Below, piece after piece: positions 30,380 through 52,217 of a DNA stretch of 52,346 nt (within the stretch, counting starts at the first letter, position 1; every line of letters begins with the position of its first letter). A program made the position numbers and the translations under genes. Origin of the DNA: Candidatus Yanofskybacteria bacterium CG10_big_fil_rev_8_21_14_0_10_46_23 (GTDB lineage Bacteria > Patescibacteriota > Minisyncoccia > 2-02-FULL-40-12 > IGHO2-12-FULL-4); the NCBI GenBank assembly GCA_002771135.1, contig PCXO01000012.1, positions 21,694 to 74,039 of the forward strand, written 5' to 3'. A model generated the notes under the pieces. The model was not told the DNA's origin. It did no database searches and was given only the letters and a program-made list of their open reading frames with translations.

Positions 30380-30445
30380 GGGCATTGACTTTTCCTACGT
30401 GGTGCCCGGGGTAGGAGTCGGGCTCGACTCGAGATTCTATAAGAA

Positions 30446-31006
30446 TTATCTTTTGATAGGACCAACCAGATTAATAAACATTTCAACATTTTTAGCAAGC
30501 CTAACATTAAATCTCGCCAATTTTTTAGGTAATTTGACCTTATAAATTCTAGGTTTAAAGCCTAGGGTAGCCATTCCATAAAAAACATCTTTCGAGAGAT
30601 TCTCTATGGTAGAAGTAAAGCCAATCATTTTATAGCCCCTGTCTTTATAGATGCAGCCATCGGTTTCTATCAGTCCCTTTAAGCAATGAGTTAAATATTT
30701 TTTATCAGATTTTATCCAGTTAGGAATCCCTGAAATTTGAGAAGCTTTAGGTCCAGGCTTCCATCCTAATATTTTTGGCCATTTATTTGAGTAGCAACTT
30801 ATATCTAAACACCCCCCATCTCTTTTAATTAGAGATATCTTATTATTTGGTAGAACTTTTTTAATAACTTTTTGGAAATTTTTAATCAGTTGGGGATATT
30901 TTTTGTCGCAGGTAATTCTAAGGCGAATTGCCCTACCATTAGGGTTTGAGAGATTCCCGTCTCCCATACATATACCAATTAGATAAGCTTTCTCTGTTTT
31001 ATTCAA
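30446..31006 (-). CDS. LAGLIDADG-type homing endonuclease (two motifs)
   Basis: YLIGICMGDGNLS and CLKGLIETDGCIY...; TTG start 4 nt after tRNA-Leu CCA. Confidence 0.8.
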   Translation of the reverse strand: MNKTEKAYLIGICMGDGNLSNPNGRAIRLRITCDKKYPQLIKNFQKVIKKVLPNNKISLIKRDGGCLDISCYSNKWPKILGWKPGPKASQISGIPNWIKSDKKYLTHCLKGLIETDGCIYKDRGYKMIGFTSTIENLSKDVFYGMATLGFKPRIYKVKLPKKLARFNVRLAKNVEMFINLVGPIKR

Positions 31007-31010
31007 ATTC

Positions 31011-31096
31011 TGGTGGGCGAGGTGGGATTCGAACCCACATGGTCAAAGACCACACGATTTTGAGTCGTGCGCGTAAGCCAATTCCGCCACTCGCCC
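31011..31096 (-). tRNA. tRNA-Leu (anticodon CAA), CCA encoded
   Basis: GGGCGAGTGGCGGAATTGG..CACGACTCAAAATCGTG..variable arm..GGGTTCGAATCCCACCTCGCCCACCA. Confidence 0.93.
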
Positions 31097-41294: not shown

Positions 41295-41529
41295 TCTTTA
41301 ATGTTGACACTTAATTTGAGTCTGATAGAATGACTCCACTAAGTTATGTAGAATATTTCCAAGCCAATGAAATAGCGTGGTGTACCCGCCAGTGGATTTT
41401 ATGGATCTACTGGCGGTTACATTAGGAGATCCAACGTAGCCGTGTATTTTAAAAATTTGAACGTCCAATTTTTTGAACAGTTATAAAAAACAGTATCTTA
41501 CTTGATACTGTTATCCAGTCCTCCTTTTA

Positions 41530-41566
<37 letters not shown>

Positions 41567-41738
41567 TGTGGATAAGGCATGCAAGTCGAGCGAGTCCGCC
41601 TTCGGGCGAGACGAGCGGCAGACGAGTTAGTAACACCTTGGTACGTACCTCGAAGTCGGGCATAACTCCGCGAAAGCGGCGCTAATTCCCGATAGTCTGG
41701 CAACAGTAAAGTTTTTACGCTTCGAGAGCGGCCTAGGT

Positions 41739-41776
<38 letters not shown>

Positions 41777-42789
41777 GATGACGGGTAGGGGGTGTGAGAG
41801 CACGACCCCCAACGATGGCACTGAGACACGGGCCATACACCTACGGGTGGCCGCAGTCGAGAATATTCCGCAATGGGCGAAAGCCTGACGGAGCGACACC
41901 GCGTGCAGGAAGACGGCCTTAGGGTTGTAAACTGCTTTTTTCAGGGAAGAATTTTGACGGTACCTGACGAATAAGGGGCTGCTAACTTCGTGCCAGCAGC
42001 AGCGGTAATACGAAGGCCCCAAGCGTTATCCGGATTAACTGGGCGTAAAACGTGAGCAGCTGGTGATATTAGTCTGATGTTAAATCTTACCGCCCAACGG
42101 TAAGGCCGCATTGGAAACGGTATCACTTGAGTTGGTAAGAGGCATACAGAACGTGCGGTGTAGGGGTGAAATCCGTTGATATTGCACGGAATACCAAAAG
42201 CGAAGGCAGTATGCTGGTGCCAAACTGACGGTCAGTCACGAAAGCGTGGGGAGCGAATGGGATTAGATACCCCAGTAGTCCACGCTGTAAACGTTGCAGA
42301 CTCGCTATCGGGAGCATCGACCCTCTCGGTGGCCAAGCAAACGCGTTAAGTCTGCTGCCTGGGAAGTACGAGCGCAAGCTTAAAACTCAAAGGAATAGAC
42401 GGGGATTTGCACAAGCGGTGGATCATGTGGTTTAATTCGATTATAAGCGGAAAACCTCACCAAGGCTTGAAATCTAGCTGCAAGCTCTGAGAAACCAGAG
42501 CCGCCTTCGAGGGTGCTAGACAGGTGCTGCACGGTTGTCGTCAGCTCGTTCCGTGAGGAGTTCTCTTAAGTGAGGAAACGAGCGCAACCCCTATTGCGTG
42601 TTATACGTGTCACGCGAGACTGCCGAGGATAACTCGGAGGAAGGTGGGGATGACGTCAAATCAGCGTGGCCCTCTGATGCCTTGGGCTACACACATGATA
42701 CAATGGGTGGTACAACGGGTTGCCAAGTCGCGAGACGGAGCTAATCCTATCAAAGCCATCCTCAGTTCGGATTGGAGGCTGCAACTTGC

Positions 42790-42825
<36 letters not shown>

Positions 42826-43229
42826 TCACGCCGCGGTGAATACGTTCTCAAATCTTGTACTCACAAATAAAAGCGCCCGGCCGCTTAATTTTCTAAGTGG
42901 TTAAAGTCCACTCCTCTATTACGTCAATAGAGCGTAGCTGAAGGATAGGCCCAAAACCGCGAGGTTGGGGCCGGAGGATCCGAAAGCAAAAGACAGCCTA
43001 ATTTTCTGTTAGTAAACAGAGGGATAATCGACTCATCGTTGGGTAGTGAGGATGAGGAAGGTTAGAAGTAATCCTATTAGGATGTCTAGAAGAGAAATTT
43101 AAGTAACCCGGGGAGATCTGATGCTGTCTCTTCTATGTTAAAATAGAAGAGTAATGTAACTTATGCAGCATCAGAAGTCAGCTGGTTCGTAGTAACCACA
43201 TTTATGTGGAGAAGGAACCTCCCCAATGT

Positions 43230-52053: not shown

Positions 52054-52127
52054 GGGTGTGTAGCTCAGCTGGTTAGAGCACTTCACTGATAATGAAGAGG
52101 TCCCAGGTTCGAGTCCTGGCACACCCA
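52054..52127 (+). tRNA. tRNA-Ile (GAT), CCA not encoded
   Basis: GGGTGTGTAGCTCAGCTGGTTAGAGCACTTCACTGATAATGAAGAGGTCCCAGGTTCGAGTCCTGGCACACCCA. Confidence 0.96.
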
Positions 52128-52217
52128 CACAATTTTTACTCAAATTTCAATTTGATTGTAAAAATTAGTGCCCGACCGGATCCGCCTTGGGTGGAGGAGG
52201 CGGGCCGGCATCAAGAG

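Follow-up and report, generated by a model that had tools for sequence, protein, structure and literature searches.

Directly behind the tRNA-Leu(CAA) gene of a Patescibacteria (CPR) genome lies a LAGLIDADG gene, which is itself followed by the displaced 3' end of another tRNA-Leu. We consider it likely, with a probability of about 0.8, that this is a mobile homing endonuclease gene parasitizing tRNA-Leu(CAA), which inserts within the tRNA gene and supplies a replacement end, without an intron. The window, by which the whole stretch of analyzed DNA is meant, covers 52 kb of the genome, and the locus consists of the following features.

31011..31096, minus strand: intact, functional tRNA-Leu(CAA) with encoded CCA (ARAGORN; Rfam RF00005, 60.2 bits)
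31007..31010, minus strand: 4-nt spacer GAAT between the CCA and the start codon (sequence)
30446..31006, minus strand: predicted single-chain LAGLIDADG homing endonuclease gene, 186 aa, TTG start, motifs with D16 and D116 (ORF list, PF14528, AlphaFold2 model, I-DmoI match, GC content)
30421..30445, minus strand: short tail of the element, from the ORF stop to the displaced tRNA fragment (sequence)
30400..30420, minus strand: displaced 3' end of an earlier tRNA-Leu, CGACTCCTACCCCGGGCACCA, from T-loop to CCA (match to a 3'-end panel; score against shuffles)

The acceptor stem of this tRNA reads GGGCGAG/CTCGCCC, and the junction runs ...CTCGCCC-A-CCA-GAAT-TTG. The initial annotation had described a two-motif LAGLIDADG ORF with a TTG start at 31006, on the same strand as the tRNA-Leu(CAA) and 4 nt after its CCA, and this is borne out by ARAGORN, Rfam, and the ORF list. 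Its statement that the 4-nt gap leaves no room for a promoter or a Shine-Dalgarno sequence holds as well: the promoter-like sites on the minus strand near the junction all lie upstream of the tRNA (the closest at 31131-31103), with none in the gap and none in the ORF. An in-frame TGA within the tRNA (31045-31043) closes the frame upstream and excludes a longer ORF with an ATG, GTG, or TTG start. A start at codon 14, the next ATG in frame, would cost the protein its first LAGLIDADG helix; the TTG is thus the natural start. The ORF is AT-rich, with a GC content of 33% versus 47% for the window. Elsewhere in the window, the 16S rRNA (41525-42917) and the next tRNA-Ile(GAT) (52054-52128) are 9 kb apart; the short spacer that usually joins 16S and tRNA-Ile is missing or interrupted, and the 23S rRNA was not found in the window.

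The tRNA-Leu is contiguous according to ARAGORN and the Rfam scan returned no intron family, which does not fit a group I intron; the ORF stands alone and without an extein, as a free-standing homing endonuclease gene would. The duplication of a tRNA 3' end behind inserted DNA is a hallmark of tRNA-targeting integrases, and the ORF might on this ground be taken as part of a genomic island with att sites at tRNA 3' ends. The inserted unit, however, is only about 0.6 kb long, and the ORF list gives the 186-aa LAGLIDADG protein as the only ORF and no integrase gene between the tRNA-Leu and the fragment, which leaves the island reading hardly credible.

The protein itself matches the Pfam family LAGLIDADG_3 (PF14528) above the cut-off, as do all 49 aligned relatives, and its AlphaFold2 model (pLDDT 95.7, pTM 0.91) contains two LAGLIDADG repeats with I-DmoI as the best fold matches in the PDB (E 2e-9, TM about 0.7). 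The two motifs retain the catalytic acidic residues of the homing endonuclease fold, D16 being kept in 64 and D116 in 65 of 65 sequences, and dN/dS between close pairs is 0.08-0.16 (about 0.1), indicating purifying selection. Taken together, the modeled fold, the conserved aspartates, and the dN/dS values make a single-chain homing endonuclease that is predicted to be active the most likely identity. Matches to BamA in a PDB sequence search were weak, and BamA does not occur among the fold matches listed. Purifying selection would also be expected if the ORF had been domesticated as a WhiA-like regulator or a tRNA-processing factor that resides near tRNA-Leu for a host function, and 41 of the 49 members indeed weakly match the WhiA LAGLIDADG model, while WhiA is found among the fold matches of the AlphaFold2 model. 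WhiA combines a LAGLIDADG domain that lacks an active site with a C-terminal HTH domain, whereas the 186-aa protein has no HTH domain and keeps the acidic residues, which a protein that only binds DNA would not need. Since, in addition, few genomes have the ORF and some copies have decayed, domestication is regarded as very improbable.

The homing endonuclease gene is not confined to the window. An alignment-based scan of GTDB genomes yielded 65 loci (64 Leu-type and one distant), where a scan of genome contigs with the single sequence had given no matches, and the records with Leu-type loci are almost all titled Patescibacteria or CPR lineages. Sixty of the 64 adjoin tRNA-Leu(CAA), and 57 are located downstream of it on the same strand. 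The distance is at most 60 nt in 56 of these and 268 nt in one; L120 and L131, which are counted among the 57, duplicate the records L003 and L004. Two loci (L104 and L124) lie just 5' of tRNA-Leu(CAA), and one (L105) is inverted and faces the tRNA 3' end. Homologues away from tRNAs, which would have spoken against the tie to tRNA genes proposed by the initial annotation, amount to only two of 64 (L123 and L150); two more lie at contig ends, where no judgment is possible. In 40 of 56 loci, the first start codon in frame follows the discriminator base at a distance of 1-7 nt, with a mode of 1 nt (...GGCA followed by CATG or CTTG); this short spacing and the 57 same-strand downstream positions argue that the arrangement of tRNA and ORF is not due to chance. 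All 57 adjoining tRNAs keep seven of seven acceptor pairs, and the CCA is encoded in only 12. By eye, a promoter-like sequence is visible upstream of L109 and L123, which are members away from a tRNA 3' end, whereas the abutting members have no room for one. At L128 (3605-3963), four near-tandem tRNA-Ser copies with the unusual anticodon ACT lie beside the Leu-type element.

The distribution within the phylum is patchy (7 of 380 genomes), and decayed elements are present at tRNA-Leu in G016 (L024) and G008 (L032). In an AU test the enzyme tree did not significantly reject a host-like grouping (p 0.38), so horizontal transfer between hosts is not demonstrated by the phylogeny. No relatives were found in the viral contigs of IMG/VR, and carriage by phages is thus unsupported. 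The idea that a tRNA-Leu of the GGGCGAG type travels with the element was dropped, this type being found in 18 of 362 genomes that are mostly element-free.

The feature that points to insertion within the tRNA is the displaced fragment at 30400-30420, which makes the insertion junction definable, a check that the initial annotation had suggested. When both strands of the 52-kb window were compared with a panel of tRNA-Leu 3' ends, CGACTCCTACCCCGGGCACCA was outmatched only by the real tRNA-Leu and the 3' end of tmRNA, and its score of 16 exceeds the shuffle maximum of 11.5. Such 3' fragments also lie behind the ORF in seven further loci (L004, L098, L142, L107, L132, L092, and L138, of which L092 and L138 were too short for scoring and were read by eye), and all eight fragments start in the T-loop. 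Among the 58 scored loci, six show a fragment at a score of at least 11.5; L143 also scores high, but the match there is a neighboring tRNA-Pro. As controls, a score of 12 was reached in 2 of 155 other places and in none of 55 reverse complements, with a shuffle maximum of 11.5. About 50 of the 58 have no recognizable displaced fragment, which may reflect decay or compact flanks.

Empty sites, which the initial annotation proposed to look for in relatives, were found. The genome G025 belongs to the same genus as the occupied G033 and has the same parA-tRNA-Leu neighborhood without an element, and the fragment of G033 (L004) is identical to the 3' end of the G025 tRNA-Leu at 20 of 20 positions. 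Within occupied loci, the fit between the acceptor strand of the fragment and the present tRNA is poor in the window (4 of 7 pairs), L004 (4 of 7), L142 (2 of 7), and L138 (4 of 7), and in these four the present tRNA is therefore taken to be a replacement; such a mismatch is absent in L098, and only one of seven pairs is off in L107, L132, and L092. Sequence comparison further indicates that the present tRNA differs from the fragment around the T-loop in all eight cases, which is suggestive of a means by which the replacement tRNA could escape cleavage.

A simpler origin of the fragment would be a gene inserted beside or between tandem copies of tRNA-Leu, with the fragment as a decayed duplicate and no cut within the tRNA. 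CPR do have tandem tRNAs, and short repeats of the tRNA 3' end without an ORF are seen at some empty loci (L040, L042, and L060). Decayed duplicates should, however, begin at varied points instead of in the T-loop in all eight ORF-associated cases, and neither the exact match between the G033 fragment and the tRNA-Leu of an empty genome of the same genus nor the mirror-image 5' fragments at Tyr, Gln, and Ser loci fits this origin, which we thus consider unlikely. The second tRNA-Leu 3' ends of L040, L042, and L060 lie 17-150 nt after tRNA-Leu(CAA), and they are possibly scars of lost elements.

Insertion within a tRNA gene also seems to apply to other tRNAs. Distant homologues are located 5' of tRNA-Tyr(GUA), tRNA-Gln(CUG), and tRNA-Ser; the stop codon of the ORF often falls within the tRNA. 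The ORF is preceded in these elements by the displaced 5' part of a tRNA, which ends in the D-loop. The 5' fragments were detected using the tRNAs of element-free relatives as the reference: a score of at least 10 was reached in 12 of 20 Tyr/Gln/Ser loci versus 3 of 100 control places (p 3e-9). Little was found when the upstream regions were aligned to their own functional tRNA, because the displaced part differs from the replacement. As an example, the Tyr fragment of G009 (GGTGGTTGGTAGAGTGGTCAATT) matches the element-free Tyr tRNA of G012, a member of the same family. The window's own genome has a Tyr element as well (L002; G000:C5, 1273-2055). The 260-aa LAGLIDADG ORF of this element has an HTH-like N-terminus, ends with its stop codon inside tRNA-Tyr(GUA) (2041-2126), and is preceded by a weak displaced tRNA-Tyr 5' fragment. 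In the tree, the Tyr and Gln clades each have a support of 99, and target labels change 9 times versus 38.9 in shuffles, indicating target-specific clades.

In three Ser elements (L011, L013, and L028), the ORF start codon falls within the displaced tRNA-Ser D-arm (GGAGATATGGCTGAGC...), which suggests that translation of the gene now begins in what used to be tRNA sequence. In L013, L015, L018, L023, and others, the last codons and the stop of the ORF lie inside the 5' end of the downstream tRNA, and processing by RNase P would leave the mRNA without its stop codon. Another LAGLIDADG family, distinct from the first, occurs 3' of tRNA-Leu(CAA) in G003 and G015 (L033, 821-1491, and L045, 1620-2315), at a spacing of 4 nt in the broken copy of G003, which belongs to the window's taxonomic family, and of 37 nt in G015; its use of the same site suggests that the 3' end of tRNA-Leu(CAA) is a hotspot. 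Members of this second family found elsewhere mostly abut Leu(GAG), Leu(UAA), Cys, Asp, or Phe tRNAs, and displaced 5' fragments are not clear for most of this family.

The proposal of the initial annotation, a free-standing homing element targeting tRNA 3' ends, therefore stands in so far as the element is free-standing and tied to tRNA-Leu, and falls with regard to the target: the 3' end as such does not appear to be the target, given that the fragments start in the T-loop and that the relatives are placed 5' of other tRNAs and appear to break them in the D-loop. From the anatomy, its conservation across CPR, the displaced fragments, the empty site, the decayed copies, and the predicted fold with its conserved active site, we infer the following route. 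The single-chain enzyme would cut element-free tRNA-Leu(CAA) genes in the conserved T-loop, as the starting point of the fragments suggests. The break would then be repaired from the donor allele, which would copy in the endonuclease gene up to the cut and a tRNA-Leu, usually in full and as a minimum its 3' end. The host would thereby retain a functional tRNA, while the end of the old one, running from the T-loop to the CCA, would stay behind the gene and decay. The replacement 3' end brought by the element would explain why the gene abuts the tRNA 3' end, and would make a splicing intron unnecessary. Lacking its own promoter, the gene would be co-transcribed with the tRNA by read-through, and maturation of the tRNA 3' end would free a near-leaderless mRNA that starts a few nucleotides before the start codon, which is the simplest reading of the conserved 1-7 nt spacing of the Leu elements. 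In the Tyr, Gln, and Ser types, the cut would fall in the D-loop; here too, repair from the donor would co-convert the tRNA, and the displaced end would decay. Findings that stand against this explanation are the normal T-loop of the functional tRNA, which the enzyme would have to spare; the lack of a recognizable fragment at most Leu loci; the positions of L123 and L150 away from tRNAs and of L104 and L124 5' of tRNA-Leu; and the enzyme tree, which does not significantly reject a host-like grouping.

In its widest form, which we favor only slightly over its negation, the proposal is that intron-less homing endonuclease genes have radiated within the tRNA genes of CPR. Each clade would be specialized for a single tRNA or a small number of them (Leu-CAA through the T-loop; Tyr, Gln, and Ser through the D-loop; Leu-GAG, Leu-UAA, Cys, Asp, and Phe in further clades), would exchange the tRNA during homing, and would obtain its mRNA via tRNA processing. 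It would show how a selfish gene can persist within an essential RNA gene without splicing, by offering its host a spare tRNA end. If true, such elements would cause tRNA genes of CPR to be replaced, account for many of the orphan LAGLIDADG ORFs that adjoin CPR tRNAs, and amount to a large natural collection of nucleases directed against the D- and T-loops of tRNAs. The element is also a clear test case for whether tRNA maturation can create leaderless mRNAs.

The single-chain fold is shared with I-DmoI and other archaeal intron-encoded LAGLIDADG enzymes. I-DmoI is encoded in an archaeal 23S rRNA intron, unlike the tRNA-Leu element of CPR, which has no intron. The rRNA genes of CPR host LAGLIDADG insertion sequences (PMC11270868), which share the hosts and the enzyme superfamily with the tRNA-Leu element and target rRNA; tRNA is not mentioned in the main text of that report. 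No account of homing endonucleases of tRNA genes in CPR was found in the open-access literature that was searched. The displaced 3' tRNA-Leu fragment behind the ORF is an addition to the initial annotation, and the proposed insertion of a homing endonuclease gene within a tRNA gene has precedents in phage SegB and the fungal mORFs.

SegB of phages T4 and T6 cuts inside tRNA genes at the motif RAWTSGAAC (PMC13096335). By our reading, this motif would be the reverse complement of the GTTCRA region of the T-loop, where the Leu fragments start. Like the CPR element, SegB is a free-standing homing endonuclease adjoining tRNA genes, but it sits in phage tRNA arrays and is a GIY-YIG enzyme instead of a LAGLIDADG enzyme; for SegB, no report of tRNA-end replacement or of an abutting start codon was found.

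The fungal mitochondrial mORFs of Allomyces and Glomus are endonuclease genes inserted in atp6, atp9, cox2, or nad3, which carry a foreign replacement of the host gene's 3' end and leave the native end displaced behind the ORF (PMC3630166). The same layout of an endonuclease gene in a host gene, a replacement 3' end, and a displaced native copy is found here: the displaced end lies behind the gene in the window and seven relatives (it is absent or decayed in most others), and a foreign replacement next to a native end like that of close relatives is evident from the G033/G025 identity and the acceptor mismatches in four loci. Unlike the mORFs, which reside in protein genes, the CPR element occupies a tRNA gene of a bacterium, and some CPR families replace the 5' end instead. 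Moreover, since a tRNA must stay base-paired, the whole tRNA seems to be exchanged, unlike in the mORFs.
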